Assembly: GCA_021818865.1 (NCBI GenBank)
Contig: JAKASX010000026.1
Coordinates: forward strand, 1-38,280
Direction: 5' to 3'
Length of the DNA stretch: 38,280 nt
Source: Acidobacteriota bacterium
GTDB lineage: Bacteria > Acidobacteriota > Terriglobia > Acidiferrales > UBA7541
The translations under genes were made by a program, and so were the position numbers. This document shows, piece by piece, positions 7,834 through 22,248 of this stretch. Each line of letters opens with the position of its first letter. Positions within the stretch are counted from its first letter, which is position 1. The notes below the pieces were generated by a model. That model searched no databases. It saw nothing but the letters and a program-made list of their open reading frames with translations, and was not told the origin of the DNA.

Positions 7834-8050
7834 TCACCCCGAAGGGCCCGGGCACCGGGTCCTGAAGGATCCCGTCCGCCTCATGCCAACAGCACCCGCG
7901 CAGTGAACAACCCTTCTCGGGGTATGCACCACGCACCAAGGACGCAACCTGCAACCGCTTCTGTCGTCCTGAACGAAGCCTTTAGCGACGACCGAAGGGA
8001 GTCACGACGCTTTTAGTCGGGAAGGACCCTATCCGCCTCAAGCCGTCCCG
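7834..8050. repeat. Intergenic dispersed-repeat-like sequence, two degraded copies
   Basis: The spacer holds two related stretches of the type GTCaCCCcGAAGGGc...GGTCCTGAAGGATCCC and GTCGTCCTGAACGAAG...GAAGGACCCTATCCGCCTC. They resemble GTCATCCTGAGCGAAG...GAAGGATC intergenic elements recalled from many soil bacteria. An 8-bp stem (7844-7851 with 7855-7862) lies in the first copy and could act as a weak terminator after the Usp gene. Confidence 0.4.
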
Positions 8051-8058
8051 CCACCCCG

Positions 8059-9384
8059 TCACCCGTGCGTCTGCTTCACCGGCCGTTCCAACCACCGCGT
8101 GTGCTCGCAATACCCGTAAAGCTCCTCGCGAAACTTCGGATGCGCGATCTCGATCAGTGCCTGCGCCCGTTCCCGCACCGTTTTCCCGTGCAGCAACGCC
8201 ACGCCGTACTCCGTCACCACATAATGCGTCAGCCCGCGCGAGGTGACCACCCCCGCCCCTGGCGTAAGCATCGGCACGATCCGCGAAATGTTCCCGCCCT
8301 TCGCCGTCGAGGGCAGCGTCACGATCGGTTTCCCGCCTTTAGATCCCGCCGCTCCGCGCAGAAAATCCACCTGCCCGCCGATCCCGCTGTAGAAATAGGT
8401 TCCCAGCGAATCCGAGCAAACCTGCCCGGTCAAGTCCACTTCGAGCGCGGAATTGACCGCCACCATCTGGTCGTTCTGCCGGATCAGCGCGATGTCGTTC
8501 GTGTACGCCGTCGGGTGAAACTCGAAAATCGGGTTCTCGTCGACGAAATCGAACAGTTGCCGCGTTCCCAGTACGAATCCCAGTATGATTTTTCGCGGGT
8601 GAATCGTTTTCCGAAATCCGTTGATCACGCCCGATTCCACCAGCGGAATCACGTTGTCCGACAGCATTTCCGTATGGATGCCCAGGTCTCTCCGCCCCGC
8701 CAGTTCCGGCAGCACCGCGTCCGGCAATCCGCCGATGCCCAGTTGCAGCGTCGCGCCGTCTTCCACCAGCGAAGCCACATGCCGCGCGATCGCCCGGTGC
8801 ACGTCCTGAATGTCCGCCTTCGGCAGTTCGTAGAGCGGGTGCGAGCATTCCACCACCCATTCGAAATCGTCCACGTGCAAAAAGCTGTCGCCGTACGTCC
8901 GCGGCATCTTCTCATTCACTTCCGCGATCACGTGCCGAGCCGTTTTCGCCGCCGTCAGCGTCGTATCCACGCCAACGCCCAGGCTGCAAAATCCGTGCGA
9001 ATCGGGCGGTGAAACCTGCACCAGCGCCGCGTCCAGCGCCAGCGTCCCGCCCGTCAAAAGCGATTCCACGTCGCTCAGGAACACCGGCGTGTAATCCGCT
9101 CGTCCTTCGTTCACCGCCTGGCGCACGTTCGGCCCGATGAAGATCGCGTTGTGCCGGAAATGCCCCTCCATTTCCGGTTTCACGTAATCCGCGTTGCCCA
9201 GCGTCATCATGTGAACGATTTCCACGTCCCAGAGCTCCGGTCCGCGCGCGATCAGCGCCCGCACCAGGATCTCTGGCTCCGCGCATCCGGGATGGATGTA
9301 GACGCGCATCCCCGATTTCACCGCTTCGAGCGCCTTCTCCGGCGTCGTCACTTTCCCGCGATACCGCGTTCTCCAGTCACCCAT
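8059..9384 (-). CDS. Acetyl-CoA hydrolase/4-hydroxybutyrate CoA-transferase family protein
   Basis: A 441-aa class I CoA-transferase. The catalytic Glu is E239 in GIHTEMLSD, equivalent to Glu238 of AbfT-type enzymes, where it forms the glutamyl-CoA thioester. GIGGLPDAVLPEL precedes it, and a CoA-binding GIGGQVDFLRGA loop follows. These enzymes swap CoA between acetyl-CoA and a short carboxylate such as 4-hydroxybutyrate, butyrate or succinate. GGGAG lies upstream of the ATG. No fermentation or PHB genes adjoin it, so the substrate cannot be named. Confidence 0.92.
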   Translation of the reverse strand: MGDWRTRYRGKVTTPEKALEAVKSGMRVYIHPGCAEPEILVRALIARGPELWDVEIVHMMTLGNADYVKPEMEGHFRHNAIFIGPNVRQAVNEGRADYTPVFLSDVESLLTGGTLALDAALVQVSPPDSHGFCSLGVGVDTTLTAAKTARHVIAEVNEKMPRTYGDSFLHVDDFEWVVECSHPLYELPKADIQDVHRAIARHVASLVEDGATLQLGIGGLPDAVLPELAGRRDLGIHTEMLSDNVIPLVESGVINGFRKTIHPRKIILGFVLGTRQLFDFVDENPIFEFHPTAYTNDIALIRQNDQMVAVNSALEVDLTGQVCSDSLGTYFYSGIGGQVDFLRGAAGSKGGKPIVTLPSTAKGGNISRIVPMLTPGAGVVTSRGLTHYVVTEYGVALLHGKTVRERAQALIEIAHPKFREELYGYCEHTRWLERPVKQTHG

Positions 9385-10359: not shown

Positions 10360-10436
<77 letters not shown>

Positions 10437-10442
10437 GCAATC

Positions 10443-11678
10443 CTACGGATTTCCAAGGGCTTGGCCGATCTGGCCAGGCCTTTTCTCTTCTAACTTGGGA
10501 ACATTTAGGAACAGAATCCGATCTTCGAGCCTGCTCATGGCCTCTCGCTGCCATCCGGGAAGCACGTGAGTGTACCCGAGCGTCGTCTGTAAGTCCGAAT
10601 GCCCCAAGATTCGCTGAGCCACGCGGAGCGGCTCGCTGGCGTGCAAGAGAGTCGCGCTGGTATGGCGCAGATCGTGCCAGCCCACTTTCGGCAGGCCTGC
10701 ACGCTCGCAGGCGGGATGAATATGCCGCTTGAGAACGTTCTCGGGCCGTAGCGGCGTCCCCGACTGGCTGGTGAACACCAAATCGCTCGTAGCGGCGTTC
10801 TCTGGCCGCAGGCGAAGCAGAATGCCTTCGAGGGCTTCGCCCATCGGGATCGTGCGAACGCTGCTCCGGGTCTTTGGTGCATTGAACTGACCGTCGTACA
10901 CGGATTCGCGCACGGCGATCAGTTTTCGTTCGAAATCCACCGCGCCCCAGCGCAGAGCGAACAGCTCGCCCCGGCGCAGTCCCGTCAGCGCGGCAATCAG
11001 AACCATGCTCTTGTACGGTTCCGAAAGCTCAGCCACCAATTGCCTGATCTGTTCCGGGGTCAATGCGATGTGTTCGTTCTGCGTGATGATCGTGGGGAGT
11101 CGAACGCCAGTTGCCGGGTTGTTTTCGAGGTAATCCCACTCGATGGCCGTTGAAAAAACCTTGCTCAACAGGTTTTTCGCCAGACTCACCGTTTTGGGGG
11201 CCAGCCTTTGCCCAAGCTGCGCCACAAATCCCTGTACCATTTGGCGACTGATCTCAGCCAGATTTTGGCCGCCAAAATACGGTATCAGGTGTTTGCGGAG
11301 CACGTGGGCATAACCTTTGGCCGTTGACCGCTTGAAAGTGGGGAAGAGATTGGGTTGCCACTGCGTTTCGACGAATTCGCGAAAAGTCAGGGTGGTTTTC
11401 GGGCGATAGATGCCAAGATTGATCGCCCGCAACCGAGACTCCACAAGCCGTTGAGCCATGCGCCGGGTGGGCAGGTCGGCGAGCAGGCCGATCACTTCCG
11501 ACCGATTCACTCGCGCGATTTGGCCATCCGGCAGCATCACGTCCTCACGGAAGCGGAGCACCCAGACCTTTCGTTTCCTGCCGCGAAGGAAGAGACACCC
11601 TCGCTGGTACCTCCGACGGGCCACTCGGAACGCTCCTTTCTCTGTGACCCGTCTTGCCCTTTGTTCGGGCGAAAGCAT
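10443..11678 (-). CDS. Tyrosine recombinase/integrase of the island
   Basis: A 411-aa phage-type integrase. The N-terminal region (1-100) contains basic segments and an arm-binding-like part. The SAM-like core-binding domain spans about 100-190. The catalytic domain has Arg235 in LTGLRRGEL, Lys269, the HxxR motif in WHDLRHT (H335, R338), H360 in ILGHSD and the nucleophile Tyr369 in TLGYTHV, so all six catalytic positions are present. The ATG at 11678 is used; a TTG at 11702 would add eight residues. It catalyses insertion and excision between attP and the tRNA-fMet attB. No excisionase is recognised nearby, though the small overlapping genes upstream could supply accessory functions. Confidence 0.95.
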   Translation of the reverse strand: MLSPEQRARRVTEKGAFRVARRRYQRGCLFLRGRKRKVWVLRFREDVMLPDGQIARVNRSEVIGLLADLPTRRMAQRLVESRLRAINLGIYRPKTTLTFREFVETQWQPNLFPTFKRSTAKGYAHVLRKHLIPYFGGQNLAEISRQMVQGFVAQLGQRLAPKTVSLAKNLLSKVFSTAIEWDYLENNPATGVRLPTIITQNEHIALTPEQIRQLVAELSEPYKSMVLIAALTGLRRGELFALRWGAVDFERKLIAVRESVYDGQFNAPKTRSSVRTIPMGEALEGILLRLRPENAATSDLVFTSQSGTPLRPENVLKRHIHPACERAGLPKVGWHDLRHTSATLLHASEPLRVAQRILGHSDLQTTLGYTHVLPGWQREAMSRLEDRILFLNVPKLEEKRPGQIGQALGNP

Positions 11679-11735
11679 ACGACTTGTCTCTTCCAGCAGC
11701 AAGGGTCTGCAATGCCTCGAAGCGAGGCCCTCCGT

Positions 11736-13598: not shown

Positions 13599-14030
13599 TT
13601 GCTACGGGGCAATACGAGATGCGGAAAAAATCCATTCGCAAGGAAGTTATCGCACCATGAGGATTTCGTCCCGTAAGGTAGTGTACGTAACGTTAGACCG
13701 GCACCGGAAACGACACCGGAGCGGGTGAGGGTCAGGCATCAGCCTCAATGGAAAGATGCAGGTGGCAAGCTGAGGGAATCGGAGCCAATACCCTTGCCGA
13801 CGAGGAGGAATTGCCTGCGATTCTGATTTCCACCGGAACGAAGGGGCGGCCCGTCCAGACGATTGCGCGTGATCTTCTGGCTCGCCTCGGCTCGGTCGCC
13901 AAACTAGCAAATGAACCTCTGGACCCGCATTTCCGTTTTAAAGCACCCTTGCTTAACCTTCAGTGCTTCGCTCGCATGAATATGCACGCGGGTTTCGACG
14001 CGTTGAGGACGCTTCGGAGGTCGGTTTCCA
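13599..14030. other. Spacer without a confident gene
   Basis: A 97-codon + frame (13748-14038) runs into the transposase start but shows no recognisable domain. It may be the degraded left end of the IS1380-type element or a relic; I do not call it a gene. Confidence 0.45.
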
Positions 14031-14258
14031 ATGGGTGAAACGCCACAGCCGTTTCAGCTCTCTTTCAACGCCTCGCTCAGAGTCGCTTTCCGGGGCTCGC
14101 AGGTCACCTCCGATGGTGGCCTGATCCTGTTGCGCGAAATCGACGAGCAACTCGGCCTTAGAGAGTTGATCGAAGAACAGTTGACCGACCCCGCCGGTGG
14201 AAGAATACCCAGTTCCCGCTGGCGGATTTATTTCGGCGCTCCGTGTACAGTCGCCTCA
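14031..14258 (+). pseudogene. IS1380-family transposase, frameshifted and truncated
   Basis: The N-terminus reads PFQLSFNASLRVAFRGSQV then TSDGGLILLREIDEQLGL and LIEEQLTDPAGG, the recognisable start of IS1380-type DDE transposases. At about 14200-14204 the family reading continues in another frame (NTQFPLADLFRRSVYSRL), consistent with loss of one A in an A run. Homology then stops at about 14258, well before the catalytic core. It is a dead fragment of roughly 75 codons from a protein normally over 400 aa. Confidence 0.85.
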
Positions 14259-14281
14259 GCCCGCTTTGCAAGACGTCTGGT

Positions 14282-14938
14282 TCAGATGATTCCTCGACGC
14301 TTGGCCTGAAATATTGCCTCCAGTCGGTTGTGGGTCCCGAGTTTTTCATTAACGTGGCTGAGATGATTCCGCAGCGTCCCGCTCGTTATACCGAGATCGT
14401 TTGCGATGGCTGCCGGGTTCTTCCCGTCCGCAAGAAGCCGCAAGACAGTTTTCTCCCTCTCGCTTAGCGCCGCTGTGGGAGGCAGCGATCCCTTCTCCTG
14501 CCTGGGAAGCGCAGCTATCTGCTGCGCCAATCGGATGAGCTTGGAATTGAGAATGTCCACTTGCCTCCACCGGCTTATGTCGTGGAGTATGTGAACTACA
14601 AGATGACGACCCGACCGTTCGTCCCGAAAAACGAGGCTAGAGGCCATTACCCAAATCCGACGCCCGGAACTTGCTACTAGTTCCATCTCGAAGCTTGAGA
14701 TTTCCTGCCCTCGCAACGCACAATTCATTACGGGGCACTGTTCACTGCAGATTCTGAGGCCGAGAACATTTTGCCCTTGGAAAATGGAGTGACAGGGCTT
14801 GCCAAGGGCCTGCGAGGTCGTGTAACCGAGAAACGCCTCGGCGGCGCGGTTCCAGGCGCAGATTAGTTGTTGATCGTCCACGGCGAAAGCTGCGTCTCCC
14901 GTACCGTTGAGCAACCTGGAGATGTCAGATGCCAGCAT
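14282..14938 (-). CDS. PAS-LuxR transcriptional regulator
   Basis: A 218-aa regulator with an N-terminal PAS domain (about 1-125; AAFAVDDQQLICAWNRAAE) and a C-terminal LuxR helix-turn-helix (about 155-215; LSEREKTVLRLLADGKNPA then IANDLGI). The PAS domain carries four Cys (C49, C64, C68, C73), the last three in ICSEQCPVMNC. This Cys-rich insert recurs in a PAS subfamily and could bind a metal or sense redox; that is inference. The ATG at 14938 is chosen with AGGTGGGG upstream. It is the only recognisable regulator on the island and may control the peptide locus 1.3 kb away. Confidence 0.88.
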   Translation of the reverse strand: MLASDISRLLNGTGDAAFAVDDQQLICAWNRAAEAFLGYTTSQALGKPCHSIFQGQNVLGLRICSEQCPVMNCALRGQEISSFEMELVASSGRRIWVMASSLVFRDERSGRHLVVHILHDISRWRQVDILNSKLIRLAQQIAALPRQEKGSLPPTAALSEREKTVLRLLADGKNPAAIANDLGITSGTLRNHLSHVNEKLGTHNRLEAIFQAKRRGII

Positions 14939-16249
14939 TTTGCACCCCACCTCACCTGTTCGATACCCGAGAGGGGCCATAACCCCAAATCTTATGACAA
15001 TTATCACAAGGGATGGTGACAATTCAACCATTGACGCATAGATTCCGTCAGTGCTTATGATGCGTCATAGGTGCGAGGACAATGAGCGGGTTTCCACTCG
15101 CGCTTGAAAGGTTGAGTTCCTCATTCCTCCTCTGCAAGAGCACAGGAAGCCGATGTCCCCCTGGTCGTAATTTTCGAGCGCTTGCCGGCACGGTGCTGTG
15201 CCCTTTATGGGATAGAACCTCAGAGGCAAGGCTGCGCGGGACGAAGCTAAGCGAGGCCGCCACCAGCCTGCTCCAGGGTTGGCTTCCGAACTCAGCAAGT
15301 CAAAGCCCTGACTACTGCTCGGACAGAAATCTTCCGTTGGTGACTGGTGCCAGACGCACTGGTCGGGATTTGCTCCGTTCGGGCCTCCACAGGGGTGCGG
15401 CTGCCGCCTCGATCCTTCGCGAGAGCCGAGCAGGCCGGATGCTCGGTGTTTTCCAAGACAGAGCAAGGCGAAAAAACGAGAGGGCATTTCTATCTGCATT
15501 TCCGGTGATTAGCGAACTTCTCGCCGGCTGGGGACCTCGATCATCTCCCGAACATGCGATGAAAGATTATTTATCCAAGTCTGGTGCACAGCTAGGTGTT
15601 GCGAAAAGCAGAAGCCCGCCCATCTCCGGACATCCCGTCGGCAACTTTTGACCGCCGAGGTCGTATTGGTCGAAGCCACCACCCGGCCAGATCAAGCAGA
15701 ATGTGAGGCCTGCGGTGCGGAAGCCCGTTAACGTACAGAGCCCTCCTCAATCTTGCAGGCAGTTTCAGCCGGTCTCATCAGGGGGGCGGTTTTGTTGCTG
15801 TATCAATCTTGAAAGGCCGGTGCGCTCTTGCGCCCGCACCGGGCAATCGCCTAGCGCGACCGCCCAGTGCGCGTTGCCTCTGACGGCAACGCCCGCTGAG
15901 GTACAGCACCCGTCCCACCACACTACAGACGAAGCCTCTGCTCAGTTCGGTCGTCGGCACCGAGGGCTGTTGTTGCATGTCGGCGCTCCCGAGCGATTCG
16001 GAGGTTGGCGGCCCGCGGCACCGTACGCGTTCGCCAAGCACGATCAGTCCAGGCTCGTCAATCTCCGACTGATACTGCTTCGCCACAACGCGTTGCACCA
16101 CCTTGCGGCTGCGGTAAAAAAGACCGGTTCTACGTGGCAGCCCCAGATTTATCCACTGGCATTCCGAGATAGGGCCGATGACGCAAAAACATATACCGGC
16201 CTAAACCATGTCGTTTCAACTTGACCACGCGTTAGAAAGGAGAAACAAC
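14939..16249. other. 1.3-kb spacer with no supported gene
   Basis: Frames on both strands (for example 15082-15651 + and 15065-15499 -) overlap each other and translate to Ser/Arg/Pro-rich sequence with no recognisable fold. This may be decayed DNA plus the regulatory region of the peptide locus. I could not place a convincing promoter. AAAGGAG at 16237-16243 serves the precursor gene. Confidence 0.5.
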
Positions 16250-16438
16250 GTGAAGAAACCAGTCGCGATAACCACGGGTGGGCAGGGCTCACCCCCCTCT
16301 AACGAACTCGATGTTATAGACTTCAGCGACGTCCGAGAACTTGAAGAGGCCATTGCTCCCGTGTTCGTTGCCGCGTTTAGCCCCGATTCTGGCGGCGTCT
16401 GCACGAAATACGGATGCATTTGCTTTGGTCCGAAATAA
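16250..16438 (+). CDS. RiPP precursor peptide (candidate)
   Basis: A 62-aa ORF starting at GTG, chosen because AAGGAG lies about 7 nt upstream. Residues 1-40 look like a leader with an acidic, amphipathic segment (ELDVIDFSDVRELEEAIAPV). The C-terminus is short, Gly-rich and Cys-bearing: SPDSGGVCTKYGCICFGPK, with C51, C56 and C58 and no other Cys. It lies immediately ahead of a radical SAM/SPASM gene, separated by a strong hairpin, as is common for peptide-maturase pairs. Thioether (sactipeptide- or ranthipeptide-type) links at the Cys are the likely modification, but epimerisation or other C-C chemistry cannot be excluded. I do not recognise the core from any named family. Confidence 0.75.
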   Translation: MKKPVAITTGGQGSPPSNELDVIDFSDVRELEEAIAPVFVAAFSPDSGGVCTKYGCICFGPK

Positions 16439-16465
16439 ACTCGAACGTCAGGACCTCAGTTTGAT

Positions 16466-16503
16466 CATCCTGGAGGGGCACCTCCCGGTGCCCCTCCAGG
16501 ATG
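16466..16503 (+). terminator. 17-bp perfect hairpin between precursor and maturase genes
   Basis: Arms 16466-16482 and 16487-16503 pair perfectly around the loop TCCC, and the stem is G/C-rich. Only a short TGTTT follows, so complete termination is unlikely. It probably works as a partial terminator or mRNA stabiliser giving more precursor than enzyme. It overlaps the ATG at 16501, which argues against that ATG being the maturase start. Confidence 0.7.
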
Positions 16504-16566
16504 TGTTTATGCCACGCGGAAGATGTTGTGGCGGGCTGCGGCAAGGCCGACAACGAGCGAGGGGCA

Positions 16567-18036
16567 ATGGACAGCACACGGTCGGAGGCAATCGCCGAGC
16601 TACATACGTTTCCCCATAGAGACTTTTACTTGGCGTTTCATCCGCATACTTTCTCTCTCTTTCGTATCGGCAATGCCCTGCGCTCAGCAATTCTAGAGTT
16701 GCAGCGCGGAACTCCACTATCTGAGGCAGCCGCGATTTCTCGCATTCCCGAATGTGACTTGGCTATCAGCGCCCAGAGAATCACGGATACCGTTGATCGT
16801 GCGCGTGGTTCAGTTGGGCGCAGCTCGCCGGAATTGTCCCGAGAAACTCCGATGTCGCTTTCCCTCCATGTGAGCAACTCGTGCAATCTGCGCTGCGTGT
16901 ATTGTTATGCTGATGGAGGTAGTTACGGACGCCCCCCCAGAACCAAAATGGAGAAGACGTTGGCGATAAGAGCTCTTGACACCATGTACCGCACTTTTTC
17001 ACATATCGAGAGTATCCTATTCTTTGGCGGCGAGCCTACGCTTGCAATGGACGTCATTGAGGCAGTCTGTAGCCATGTTGAAGACCTCAAAGTGCGTGGC
17101 GTGACCCGGACGATTCCGGAGTATGGTGTAGTTACGAACGGAACACTAATAAGCGGCGAGGCGGTCCGCATTATCAAGCGCTATAACATCCAGGTTACCA
17201 TGAGCGTTGATGGGCCCCCTGCCATTCACGACAAGCTGCGTCCAAGGAAGGACGGAACGGGCACCTACAAGCAGGTGAAGGCCGGATTTGACAGAATCGT
17301 AAGTGCACTCGGCCAAACGCCGCACATCGAGGCTACGTACACGCGTCTGCATCTGAATTCTGGGATGCGAATGCAAGATTTGGCTGGGTTCCTGCGGAAG
17401 GAATTCCTATTCCGGGTGGGGGCCATAATCCCGGTGCACGTTCCTCAAGAACATCCCCTGGCGCTGACCGACGAGGAGACACGCACGGATATGGCGGCGA
17501 CAACCGAAATGCTGCTTCACGATTTTATTGAGGGTCACTCGCCCACGCTCGAACGCACATTGCTTGCTCCGTTCCTGCTGTTCCTTAGGAAGCGGGCCAC
17601 TCGGTTCCTCTGTTCCGTGGGTCACACTCGCTTAACCGTTACGACCGACGGTGAGATCTATCCTTGTCATCGACTAATGCGCCCGTCTTTTCTCATGGGC
17701 ACTGTCGACGATTTTGACATCGCTCGCCCGACCCAGCAATTGAAGGATGCCCTCCGCAATCTTTCGTATTGTGACAAGTACACAAATCCATTGTGTCGAG
17801 CGTGCTGGGCCAGCCCCCTCTGCCTGGGTTGTCCGGGTGCACACATCTTTGAATCCAACAACTACCACATTCCCGACCGCTTCTGCCGAGAGATGCGCAC
17901 ATTCATCGAAAACAACATCGGAGCGTTATACGACCTGAAGAGAGACCCGGCTCTGTGGTCTCAGTTCCTGGCAGGCTTGAAAAAGCTCTCCGCAGAGTTG
18001 CAGAAGGATGCCACACCGCATGGAGAGGCTTGCTAG
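16567..18036 (+). CDS. Radical SAM/SPASM peptide maturase
   Basis: A 489-aa enzyme. The N-terminal 90 residues (HTFPHRDFYLAFHPHTFSLF) resemble the precursor-recognition region of peptide maturases. The radical SAM core has CNLRCVYC (C106, C110, C113), which binds the SAM-cleaving [4Fe-4S] cluster, and the GGEP motif (154-157). The SPASM domain has C349, C367, C402, C410-x2-C413-x5-C419-x2-C422 and C440, enough for two auxiliary clusters. The family installs thioether, C-C or epimerisation changes on RiPP precursors. The ATG at 16567 follows GAGGGG closely; in-frame ATG 16501 lies inside a hairpin. It is followed by overlapping small-ORF and M50 protease genes, so it heads a modification/processing operon. 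Confidence 0.95.
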   Translation: MDSTRSEAIAELHTFPHRDFYLAFHPHTFSLFRIGNALRSAILELQRGTPLSEAAAISRIPECDLAISAQRITDTVDRARGSVGRSSPELSRETPMSLSLHVSNSCNLRCVYCYADGGSYGRPPRTKMEKTLAIRALDTMYRTFSHIESILFFGGEPTLAMDVIEAVCSHVEDLKVRGVTRTIPEYGVVTNGTLISGEAVRIIKRYNIQVTMSVDGPPAIHDKLRPRKDGTGTYKQVKAGFDRIVSALGQTPHIEATYTRLHLNSGMRMQDLAGFLRKEFLFRVGAIIPVHVPQEHPLALTDEETRTDMAATTEMLLHDFIEGHSPTLERTLLAPFLLFLRKRATRFLCSVGHTRLTVTTDGEIYPCHRLMRPSFLMGTVDDFDIARPTQQLKDALRNLSYCDKYTNPLCRACWASPLCLGCPGAHIFESNNYHIPDRFCREMRTFIENNIGALYDLKRDPALWSQFLAGLKKLSAELQKDATPHGEAC

Positions 18037-18137
18037 TGCAACAGCCTTTTACTGTTAAGAGAATTGCAAGAAGACCGCTTTATGTATGTAAGATCACGAT
18101 GCCCGGCGTCCCGCCCACCACGGAGAAGGAGATATGA
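18036..18137 (+). CDS. Possible 33-aa ORF between maturase and protease genes
   Basis: The GTG at 18036 overlaps the maturase stop (TAGTG) and has GGAGAGG about 7 nt upstream. The stop TGA overlaps the ATG at 18134 (ATGA). The product would read VQQPFTVKRIARRPLYVCKI then TMPGVPPTTEKEI, basic at the N-terminus with one Cys. The double overlap and ribosome site suggest that ribosomes pass through it to the protease gene. It may be a second peptide, a small accessory protein, or only a translational coupling leader. No homolog is recognised. Confidence 0.45.
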   Translation: MQQPFTVKRIARRPLYVCKITMPGVPPTTEKEI

Positions 18138-19363
18138 TGCCAGTCAAGGCACATGACAATCCCCAGGTGCTACCCGAGTCACCAAAGGTCGTACGGGATA
18201 TTGGCAAGTGGCTTCTTTTTGAACGCGACGGGAGGAACCTCTACGCCGTCGGAAGTATTAGCGTCGACAGGTATCTAATGGTCCCAGAGGACATGCTCGA
18301 CCCGACGATGCTGGTTATCAGGTATTTGGATGGATCGCATGATCTTCCCTGGATTCGGAAGCAGGTTTTCCAGGAACAGGGGAAAACTGTCGACGTTGAG
18401 GCGCTTTGCCATAAACTTCTGAACTCCGGTCTAATCCCAACTGCCGAGCCCTTGAACCAGCAACCCTACAGTGAATTCCTGAGGCACTCGTTTCGGTTGC
18501 TGACTTTTCAGGTCGGGTCAATGTTCTCGTACATTCGGCCCCTGCAAGTGCTCGTATCTCCTTATGGGGTCATCAGTGGCGCTGCACTCCTGCTGGCCGC
18601 TGCTGGCGCGCTTCCTACGTGGCTCAGGGCCGCTTCCTGGGGCGGAGGTGGCGCACCCAGCGTACTCGAATACCTGTTCCTATGGACGGGTGTGTTAATA
18701 ATAGCGCTTATTCATGAATCCTTCCATGGTCTTGCCAGCCTACGCTACGGTTTGGTTCCCAAAAGTATCACGTTCGCACTGTATTTGGGATTCATTCCGT
18801 ATGTATACATAAAAATACCTGGAATCTACACCGTCGCGCCAGGACTCAGAGTGCGGATTTGGCTCGCCGGTATGTACGCCAACATCTTAATCGGAGCGAT
18901 GCTTATAGTAATTTATCCGTACATTGCCGCTCACCATGTGGTCGCTGACATGTCCATGCAACTGGCGATGGCTAACGCGGGAATATTAGTGTTCAATCTT
19001 TCTCCTTTTATGGCGACCGATATGTATTTTGTTCTTTCCACATTGTCTAAAACTCCCAATAGTCGGACTAGGAGCTACGAGCAGTTGAAAAAGTGGATCA
19101 GGGGGGAACGGAGAAGCGGGGGACCGTGGGTAACCACGTATCTTCTTCTCGCTCTCGCAACGGTCGTCTACTGCACCTACCGTTTCCTCGCTTGGATTTA
19201 CGAACTGGTGTTGTTTTCGCACAGGACGCATGATTTAGCAGCCATTGTCCAGCATTCCATGGTTCTCTTGGCGATCATCCTTCTGCTTGCAGTCAGGCTA
19301 CTATGGGAGTACATTCAACGCAGATCAAACGAGGGTATCGAGAAGAGGAAGCTTTCTTTGTGA
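18137..19363 (+). CDS. PqqD-like domain fused to M50 membrane metalloprotease
   Basis: A 408-aa protein. Residues about 15-105 look like a PqqD/RRE-type winged helix (VIRYLDGSHDLPWIRKQV then ALCHKLLNSGLI), the fold that grips RiPP leader peptides. A multi-span membrane part follows with the zinc motif HESFH (193-197) in IIALIHESFHGLASLRYG and a second site-2-protease motif NLSPFMATD (N287, P290, D295). M50 enzymes cut within or near the membrane; YydH of the epipeptide locus is a comparable partner. The likely role is removal of the leader or maturation coupled to export. The ATG at 18137 is preferred over 18134 because AAGGAG sits 5 nt upstream rather than 2. Confidence 0.85.
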   Translation: MPVKAHDNPQVLPESPKVVRDIGKWLLFERDGRNLYAVGSISVDRYLMVPEDMLDPTMLVIRYLDGSHDLPWIRKQVFQEQGKTVDVEALCHKLLNSGLIPTAEPLNQQPYSEFLRHSFRLLTFQVGSMFSYIRPLQVLVSPYGVISGAALLLAAAGALPTWLRAASWGGGGAPSVLEYLFLWTGVLIIALIHESFHGLASLRYGLVPKSITFALYLGFIPYVYIKIPGIYTVAPGLRVRIWLAGMYANILIGAMLIVIYPYIAAHHVVADMSMQLAMANAGILVFNLSPFMATDMYFVLSTLSKTPNSRTRSYEQLKKWIRGERRSGGPWVTTYLLLALATVVYCTYRFLAWIYELVLFSHRTHDLAAIVQHSMVLLAIILLLAVRLLWEYIQRRSNEGIEKRKLSL

Positions 19364-19474
19364 TTTTGACTCTAGTTGTGGCTTGGTGCGCAGGACCCAG
19401 ATGGGAAAAGGGGTCACGAGGACAGGGCGGAGGCCATTAACTGCTCTTCTATGCGGTCGTCAGGAGGTATGAGT

Positions 19475-21922
19475 ATGGAAGGTCTTTGGGAAGACATACG
19501 CTACGGATTGCGCATGTTGGTAAAAAACCCTCGTGTAACAGTTGTCGCTATTTTCGCGTTAGCCCTGAGCATCGGTGCCAACACGGCGGTGTTCTCCGTA
19601 ATCAAGGCAGTACTGCTTGATCCGCTGCCATACGAGGACGCAGCACGTCTCGTTGCCGTCTATTCGCAGTCTAGGGATTTGCGAACTGGTTCCATTTCTT
19701 ATCTGAATTTCCTCGACTGGGAGCGAGACAATCGCACCTTCTCTTCGATGGCAGCATTCAGGGAGGCCAATTTCATCCTCACAGGAATGGGGGAGGCCCA
19801 GCGCGTGGAGGGGGAGATGGTTTCCGCAGGTTTTTTCCCGCTGCTCGGTGTGAAGCCGGTAATCGGTCGGGGGTTCACCGCCCAGGAGGACCGTGAGGGT
19901 GGAACGCCGGTTGCGCTGATCAGTGAAGGCTTGTGGAAACGCGAATTTGCCTCCTCGCCCCGCGTAGTGGGGAAAACGCTCACGCTCAATGGCACGGTGT
20001 ACACGATCGTCGGTGTAATTCCCGGGGATTTCCACTACGAAAGTGGCAATTTTCAGAGGAGCGATATCTATGTTCCCATCGGCCAGTGGGGTAACCCAAC
20101 ATTTCGCAATCGCGGTGCTGCCATGGGCACTGACGCCGTCGGGCGTTTGAGGCCGGGCGTCTCGCTGGCGCAAGCGAGGGAAGATATGACTCTCGTTGCG
20201 AGCCACCTAGCGCTGGAATATCCTGACACGGACAAGGACATCGGCGCCGCGCTCATTCCGCTCAAGCAGGATATCGTCGGCAAGGTCCGCCCGCTTCTTT
20301 TGGTGGTGTTTGCGGTGGTGGTTTTCTTTTTAATGATTGCATGCTCGAATGTCGCAACGCTACAACTCGCGCGTGCGGACGCGCGGTCACACGAATTTGC
20401 GATAAGGGCGGCACTTGGTGCCACCAGCGGGCGTGTGATTCGGCAATTGCTGACCGAAAGCCTGTTACTCGGCTTTTCTGGTGGGGCGTTGGGCCTAGTT
20501 CTCGCAGTGTTGGGGACCGGGCCGGCGCTGAGATTACTTCCCGAGACACTGCCGCAATCCTCCGCAGCACACCTCGACGGCGGCGTCCTAGTTTTCACCC
20601 TTGCCATTTCGCTATTTGCGGGAATCCTTTTTGGCATGGTACCAGCGCTTAAAAGTTCCCGTCCTGACGTCCACGAAGAGCTTAAGGAAGGTTTGCGGGG
20701 CGGGAGCAGCAAACGGCATTCCGTGCAGAAACTTCTCGTCGCCGTCGAGTTAGCGCTAGCGGTTGCACTTCTGATCGGAGCGGGGCTGATGATTCGCAGC
20801 CTAAGAATGCTCTGGAAGGTCAATCCCGGGTTCGATCCGCACCACGTTTTGATCTTTAGCCTGTCGTCTTCGAGGCCCCTGGGGGCGGCCCCTGGGGAAG
20901 TTCAAGCCGCCATGGACCAGATTCGCCAGCAATTGGAAGTCGTTCCAGGCGTCCGTGCTGCGTCCCTAACGTTAGGCTCAGTACCCATGGTCGGGGATTT
21001 GGATATGCCTTTTTGGATCGCAGGACAGCCGAAGTCCCTGCCCGGCTCGCAAATGAATATGGCGCTGTTATACGCAGTCCAACCGGGCTACTTGAAGGTG
21101 ATGAAGATTCCAATTGTACACGGGCGCTTCTTCACTTCAGAAGACAATGCATACTCAGTACCTGTTGTTGTCATCGACACGCGGTTCGCTCGTCTCTATT
21201 TCGGCAACCATAACCCAGTTGGCCAACGGGTGAAACTTGGTATCGGTACCTCAGCCGAGGTCATTGGCATCGTGGGCCACGTAAGACAGTGGGGCCTCAA
21301 TGCCGGAGGCCTATCGCGTATCCAGGGGCAGATTTATCTGCCGGTTTCACAAATCCCCGATAGGTTCATGTCTCTCATGGCCCGCAGACTTACAGTTGCG
21401 CTGCGCTCCAGTCTTTTGTCTTCTGGTCAAGTCTCAGCGATTCGACAGACGATTCAGCGATTCGGAACGGGCTTGATAATGTACCGTGTTGAGACAATGG
21501 ATGGCATCATTTCCAATTCGCTTGCGGCGCAGCGTTTTTTGAGGATTCTCTTGAGCGTTTTTGCCGGCTTTGCAGTCTTGCTCTCTTGCGTCGGTATTTA
21601 CAGCGTGGTTTCGTATCTCACCAGGCAACGCATGCACGAGATGGGGATCCGGATAGCGCTGGGTGCGCAGCGGGGGGATATTCTACGACTGGTCCTGGGG
21701 CAAGGAATAAGGCTCACGCTCGTTGGCGTGGCGACCGGCATCGCTGTGGGGCTTGGGCTGACGCGTTTCCTGGGGAGCCAACTTTTTGGCGTTACGGCCA
21801 CGGACCCGCTGACGTTTGCTGGCGTCGCAATTCTCCTGACGCTGGTTGCCCTGGCGGCGTGCTACATCCCGGCGCGTCGCGCGATGCGCGTCGATCCCGT
21901 GACGGCATTGAAGTACGAGTAG
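19475..21922 (+). CDS. ADOP-type ABC permease (island copy)
   Basis: An 815-aa full-length ADOP permease: the start MEGLWEDIRYGLRMLVKNP, MacB-type periplasmic domain 1, FtsX block 1 (LMIACSNVATLQLARADARS), domain 2, and FtsX block 2 ending ACYIPARRAMRVDPVTALKYE. The ATG at 19475 is chosen because AGGAGG is 7 nt upstream; the ATG at 19469 is too close. It lies about 110 nt after the M50 gene on the same strand. No ATPase is encoded on the island, so it must borrow a host ATPase or act without one. The probable role is export of, or immunity to, the modified peptide (inference from position only). Confidence 0.93.
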   Translation: MEGLWEDIRYGLRMLVKNPRVTVVAIFALALSIGANTAVFSVIKAVLLDPLPYEDAARLVAVYSQSRDLRTGSISYLNFLDWERDNRTFSSMAAFREANFILTGMGEAQRVEGEMVSAGFFPLLGVKPVIGRGFTAQEDREGGTPVALISEGLWKREFASSPRVVGKTLTLNGTVYTIVGVIPGDFHYESGNFQRSDIYVPIGQWGNPTFRNRGAAMGTDAVGRLRPGVSLAQAREDMTLVASHLALEYPDTDKDIGAALIPLKQDIVGKVRPLLLVVFAVVVFFLMIACSNVATLQLARADARSHEFAIRAALGATSGRVIRQLLTESLLLGFSGGALGLVLAVLGTGPALRLLPETLPQSSAAHLDGGVLVFTLAISLFAGILFGMVPALKSSRPDVHEELKEGLRGGSSKRHSVQKLLVAVELALAVALLIGAGLMIRSLRMLWKVNPGFDPHHVLIFSLSSSRPLGAAPGEVQAAMDQIRQQLEVVPGVRAASLTLGSVPMVGDLDMPFWIAGQPKSLPGSQMNMALLYAVQPGYLKVMKIPIVHGRFFTSEDNAYSVPVVVIDTRFARLYFGNHNPVGQRVKLGIGTSAEVIGIVGHVRQWGLNAGGLSRIQGQIYLPVSQIPDRFMSLMARRLTVALRSSLLSSGQVSAIRQTIQRFGTGLIMYRVETMDGIISNSLAAQRFLRILLSVFAGFAVLLSCVGIYSVVSYLTRQRMHEMGIRIALGAQRGDILRLVLGQGIRLTLVGVATGIAVGLGLTRFLGSQLFGVTATDPLTFAGVAILLTLVALAACYIPARRAMRVDPVTALKYE

Positions 21923-22203: not shown

Positions 22204-22248
22204 CTCATAACCCGGAGGTCGCTGGTTCAAATCCAGCCCCCGCAACCA
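22204..22248 (+). repeat. attR: 45-bp direct repeat of the tRNA-fMet 3' part
   Basis: Identical to 10392-10436. The upstream sequence has no 5' half of a tRNA, so this is a remnant left by site-specific integration and not a functional tRNA. Confidence 0.95.

Follow-up and report, generated by a model that had tools for sequence, protein, structure and literature searches.

A tRNA-integrated island of an Acidobacteriota genome carries a rare RiPP cassette, probably of the thioether type, beside an ADOP permease

Gene content of the island

The window (the whole stretch of 38,280 nucleotides that was analysed) contains an 11.8-kb island enclosed by two 45-bp att repeats with zero mismatches (Table 1). 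The left repeat is the 3' end of a tRNA-Met gene adjoined by an integrase gene, and the presence of a direct repeat of the tRNA 3' end on the far side identifies the element as a tRNA-integrated genomic island. The initial annotation had described the locus as island-borne, and the att repeats, the tRNA-Met and the integrase bear this out. In a congener, the same flank and tRNA are followed by another copy of the 45-bp repeat approximately 19 kb off, with different intervening DNA. Thus, the tRNA-Met is a reused integration site.

The cargo of the island comprises a RiPP cassette, a PAS-LuxR regulator gene and mobile-element fragments. The regulator gene (14282-15031, minus strand) lies upstream of the cassette and is a possible regulator, whereas the UPF0758/RadC-like and DDE transposase-like fragments at 13748-14309 are apparently remnants. 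The four main ORFs (precursor, maturase, protease and ADOP) exist in the order and on the strand originally reported. Their GC content is 51-57%, whereas chromosomal genes that lie beyond the island in the window have 60-66%.

Table 1. Features of the island, with coordinates in the window.
Feature	Coordinates	Strand	Basis
tRNA-Met (CAT), integration site	10360..10436	+	ARAGORN; Rfam
att repeat 1, 3' 45 bp of tRNA-Met	10392-10436	+	Repeat comparison
Island integrase, a phage-type tyrosine recombinase	10443..11702	-	Pfam PF00589, E 2.5e-26; phrog_1, E 3.2e-75
Precursor peptide, 62 aa	16250..16438	+	ORF, RBS, homologues
Perfect 17-bp hairpin in the precursor-maturase gap	16466..16503	+	
Radical SAM/SPASM maturase with N-terminal RRE-like segment	16567..18036	+	The longer ORF begins at 16501
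33-aa ORF, probably not a gene	18036..18137	+	Readable; absent in L004
RRE (PqqD-like)-M50 intramembrane metalloprotease	18134..19363	+	Profile matches, alignment, structure model
ADOP-family duplicated permease, island-borne, role unproven	19475..21922	+	TIGR03434
att repeat 2, right island end, 45 bp identical to tRNA-Met 3' end	22204..22248	+	

Homologous loci

Maturase-derived patterns were scanned over 84,980 species genomes, and one close relative was found, located in another Acidobacteriota MAG (locus L004) and approximately 45-46% identical to the window maturase over 482 residues. Neither 151 relatives nor 396 genomes from the phylum yielded another close maturase. The gene order that the initial annotation had proposed seeking in other Acidobacteriota is present at L004 from the precursor through the maturase to the M50 protease (38-40% identity), but no ADOP follows the protease there. 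The M50 gene is succeeded by a secreted-looking 107-aa ORF and by a contig-edge ORF that weakly matches an integrase (phrog_1, E 0.003).

Five more distant maturases were found in 348 genomes of the L004 family, three of which (L043, L044 and L045), approximately 30% identical to the window maturase, have a related precursor upstream. No match to the protease or to the ADOP was detected at these three loci within the 12 kb read. These outlying precursor-maturase members (L043:883-2552; L044:1982-3622, minus strand; L045:2707-4363, minus strand) share a context of CrcB-like and DUF190-like genes. The maturases at L031, L046 and L047, also approximately 30% identical, were rejected as members of the family because no related precursor was found upstream. 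At L031 (7931-9868, genome G509), the gene after the maturase relative (30-32%) encodes a protein of 171 aa that contains a CGIGCGSNCGGTCGISC stretch and is perhaps another substrate. L046:7586-8968 and L047:7244-8848 (both minus strand) are SPASM radical SAM genes from two genomes, in both cases adjoining NADH dehydrogenase (nuo)-like genes, with no precursor seen.

A precursor profile run over 399 genomes of the class yielded no further credible member; plasmids contained distant maturases only and one weak M50 match, and viral contigs one weak maturase match and no precursor relative. Beyond the window, a single complete locus with precursor, maturase and protease was found in these scans. 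Thus, among the genomes searched, the cassette is rare. Precursor and maturase are its constant parts, joined by the protease in the two closest loci. No description of this precursor-maturase family was found in the open-access literature.

Precursor peptides and the hairpins that follow them

The precursor starts at a GTG codon (16250) with the ribosome-binding site AAAGGAG and reads MKKPVAITTGGQGSPPSNELDVIDFSDVRELEEAIAPVFVAAFSPDSGGVCTKYGCICFGPK, comprising the leader ELDVIDFSDVRELEEAIAP and the tail GGVCTKYGCICFGPK, in which three Cys (CTKYGCIC) occupy positions 51, 56 and 58. This Cys-tailed peptide, already noted in the initial annotation, is a gene, since a homologue occupies the same place in L004. 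The L004 precursor is a 63-aa ORF directly upstream of the maturase, with the leader LEVIDFGDLQVLEEAIAPIF and the tail GGTCSGGAGSGCVC, whose counterparts in the window are LDVIDFSDVRELEEAIAPVF and GGVCTKYGCIC; the leaders share the pattern VIDF-[SG]-D-[VL]-xx-LEEAIAP. The two precursors are 45-48% identical (E 4e-8), and their local alignment score of 102 was reached by none of 2000 shuffles (maximum 43). The L043, L044 and L045 precursors (49-51 aa, directly upstream of the maturase) have the leader [IL]E[VL]VDLG[DS]L, the tail KG[CS]GC[ST]PP and one to three Cys each, and their scores against L004 were matched by 0, 0 and 1 of 2000 shuffles, respectively. A modifying enzyme adjoined by a precursor with a conserved leader and a variable core, as generally expected of RiPPs, is therefore found at the window, L004 and the three outlying loci.

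All five precursors have Gly-x-Cys in the tail, and four of them contain C-x-C. In none of the tails is a Cys followed by Asp or Glu, so that the Cys-X3-Asp/Glu motif of PapB-type substrates is missing, and the tails of the L004 and L043-L045 precursors are devoid of any acidic residue. The acceptor of the modification must therefore differ from that of PapB. Thr or Ser follows one tail Cys in all five precursors, making these residues or their neighbours candidate acceptors.

Strong hairpins occur in all five precursor-maturase gaps, with sequences that all differ: 17 perfect pairs in the window, 14 in L004 (7948-7979) and long ones in L043-L045. The spacers form more stable folds than their dinucleotide shuffles (z -2.1 to -5.9; -4.1 for the whole window spacer), a comparison that is not a covariation test. 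Hairpins of this sort in RiPP operons commonly raise precursor over enzyme transcripts, and the one in the window is likely a partial terminator or mRNA stabiliser.

Maturase and protease

The maturase most probably starts at the ATG at 16567, because homology to L004 begins there; this codon is preceded by GAGCGAGGGGCA, a better ribosome site than that of the upstream start. A CX3CX2C motif (Cys128/132/135) and seven SPASM Cys (371, 389, 432, 435, 441, 444 and 462), all invariant in a four-sequence alignment, characterize the protein as a radical SAM/SPASM enzyme. Of the eight SPASM-region Cys originally counted, the remaining one, Cys424, is Arg in L004, indicating an ordinary seven-Cys SPASM domain. 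Pfam matches were obtained for the radical SAM domain (PF04055, E 7.5e-16) and, marginally, for SPASM (21.4 bits against a cut-off of 21.5). PapB, a thioether-forming enzyme, provides the top NCBIfam model for the window, L004 and L043-L045 maturases (154-168 bits). The window protein scores 154.3 bits with PapB, 149 with the Nif11-type model and 133 with SCIFF, below every curated NCBIfam cut-off (340 for PapB NF047865, 425 for SCIFF TIGR03974). The nearest solved structure by sequence is likewise the thioether-forming CteB (5wgg, E 7e-40). Structure models of the maturase and the protease were weak (mean pLDDT 44 and 54, respectively), being usable for secondary structure and the CteB match only; the nearest fold to the former was CteB 5why (E 3.5e-10), and its residues 35-103 form a beta-beta-beta-alpha-alpha-alpha arrangement that, at this low confidence, is RRE-like.

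The protease gene starts behind GGAGAAGGAGAT. The motifs HESFHG (194-198) and NLSPFMATD (288-296), kept in L004 and in a more distant relative at L032, correspond to the HExxH and distal Asp motifs of M50 metalloproteases and lie in membrane helices, although the Pfam M50 match is below cut-off. Residues 18-97 are modelled, again with low confidence, as a beta-beta-beta-alpha-alpha-alpha segment resembling RRE/PqqD, and the model as a whole gave no fold match. The best profile is the daptide RRE-M50 model NF041824 (71.8 bits here and 87.7 in L004, under its cut-off of 300). Together, the two motifs, the RRE-like segment and the daptide match uphold the earlier description of a PqqD-like/M50 protease. 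The L032 relative (8050-9279, genome G398, also found in G798; 30% identity) belongs to a cluster that also contains acyltransferase, ketosynthase and dehydrogenase genes, and 6 kb downstream there is an ADOP. This locus was rejected as a second RiPP locus, since ketosynthase and acyltransferase genes are its neighbours and no radical SAM gene is present. The 33-aa ORF before the protease, tentatively listed in the initial annotation, is readable but probably due to chance, because it has no counterpart in the approximately 35-nt gap of L004, and it was discarded as a second peptide for lack of conservation there.

Proposed mechanism and alternative explanations

The cassette is best read as belonging to an unnamed, rare and mobile RiPP family of the thioether type. 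We consider it fairly likely that the locus is a tRNA-integrated island carrying a RiPP cassette, whose precursor is thioether-linked by the maturase and then freed of its leader by the RRE-M50 protease. The hairpin after the precursor would keep its mRNA in excess over that of the enzyme, and the RRE of the maturase would bind the leader through the pattern shared with L004. The radical SAM/SPASM enzyme would join tail Cys to residues that are not acidic, the links most likely being intramolecular thioethers, each made at a loss of 2 Da; alternatively, the enzyme might epimerise the peptide, or the CxC tail might bind metal. The membrane M50 protease, through a second RRE at its N-terminal end, would capture the modified peptide and remove the leader by a cut close to the AP site, either at the membrane or within it. 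This cleavage might also release or export the core, as proposed for EpeP. A separate exporter is not required by this scheme, since cleavage and export of the peptide are both attributed to EpeP (PMC10885120). As for bioactivity, an antimicrobial or signalling use of the peptide can only be guessed by analogy.

In the main alternative, the four genes would work as a unit, and the ADOP would serve the mature peptide as its dedicated exporter or as an immunity permease. The ADOP, most likely starting at 19469 or 19475 and ending at 21922, belongs to its family beyond doubt (TIGR03434, 892.6 bits against a cut-off of 622.3). It shares the island and the strand of the cassette, with 111 bp separating it from the protease gene and 282 bp from the att repeat downstream. 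Its GC3 (0.63) resembles that of the cassette (0.57-0.61), unlike the value of 0.76 for the chromosomal fragment of an ADOP at the start of the window. Peptide genes are, moreover, paired with ABC transporters in epipeptide and darobactin loci (PMC12871923; PMC9055067). However, no ADOP follows the protease in L004 or is found at L043-L045 within the 12 kb read, and no ATPase or membrane-fusion gene adjoins the window ADOP. The 4-Mb genome encodes 52 full-length ADOPs above the TIGR03434 cut-off, plus partial ones, so that the chance of an ADOP as neighbour is approximately 1-2% per gene (our estimate, assuming some 3,600 genes), which is not negligible in a few-gene island. The nearest relatives (54-62% identical, the closest, at 58-62%, being ADOPs of the same genus) lie in loci without RiPP genes: 12 regions around them contained no precursor, maturase or protease match. 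This alternative therefore seems unlikely. The ADOP was rejected as a conserved component on the basis of the L004 homologue, the paralogue counts and the neighbours of its nearest relatives, and its link to the cassette beyond co-location is unproven. Thus, of the RiPP locus with an ADOP permease put forward in the initial annotation, the RiPP part is supported by the syntenic L004 and the wider precursor-maturase family, whereas the permease as a defining export or immunity component is not.

The ADOP is co-borne with the cassette and optional, and it may be a permease for self-protection. A bolder version, in which the locus would represent an undescribed Acidobacteriota RiPP class with its own leader type, thioethers to non-acidic residues, RRE-M50 processing and ADOP self-immunity, appears improbable. 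No literature on ADOP was found among open-access publications, and ADOP self-immunity, if true, would be the first function for this very large orphan family. Because the cassette and the ADOP share one mobile island, this is a clean place to test whether the permease protects from the peptide.

It is very improbable that the maturase is an epimerase yielding an epipeptide-like D-amino-acid peptide with M50 processing. The order of precursor, radical SAM and M50 genes is indeed that of epeXEP (PMC12871923), and the L004 protease matches the epipeptide YydH/LiaK model NF058609 with 49 bits. Yet the window protease reaches 20.6 bits with this model, whose cut-off is 225; PapB, Nif11, SCIFF and QhpD rank first for the maturases, with no epimerase among the best 25 models listed, and conserved tail Cys suit thioether chemistry better. 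A metal-binding or redox peptide, its CxC tail little crosslinked and serving the host rather than rivalry, would fit the shared Gly-x-Cys and C-x-C tails, but is most doubtful, as the leader and the maturase group with crosslinking systems and no metal-handling genes lie beside the cassettes.

The preferred reading, a thioether-type cassette on a mobile island, defines an unnamed precursor-maturase family that is testable by simple co-expression and whose predicted chemistry is unlike that of PapB.

Comparison with known systems

In epipeptide loci (epeXEPAB, yyd), precursor, radical SAM enzyme, M50 membrane protease and permease are found in the same order as in the window, and EpeAB confers self-immunity (PMC12871923). 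The window differs in its maturase subfamily and precursor, and its permease is an ADOP without ATPase that is not conserved. Darobactin loci (DarA, DarBCD, DarE) likewise place a radical SAM RiPP beside an ABC transporter, DarBCD (PMC9055067). Therefore, the pairing of a RiPP with a permease, which had been regarded as new, has a precedent in general terms, and the NCBIfam model of DarB, the darobactin export ABC permease, weakly matches the window ADOP (32.9 bits). Darobactin is distinguished by its Trp crosslinks, the lack of an M50 protease and a full DarBCD transporter.

As in the window, where the RRE is predicted, PapB-type ranthipeptide and SCIFF (CteB) loci combine a SPASM maturase bearing an N-terminal RRE with a Cys-containing precursor directly upstream. 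The acceptor for Cys in PapB products is the Asp or Glu of CX3D/E (PMC9413430), whereas the cores described here have no Cys-X3-Asp/Glu, the leader is unrelated and the window maturase falls below the curated cut-offs. Finally, an M50 peptidase with a fused RRE, the latter predicted in the window protein, is shared with daptide loci, whose peptidases (MpaP/DapP) are RRE-M50 fusions (PMC10036551) and provide the best profile for the window protease. No aminotransferase, oxidative decarboxylase or methyltransferase was seen among the island ORFs read, which sets the locus apart from daptides. Thus, the window combines a thioether-group maturase with a type of protease best known from daptides.
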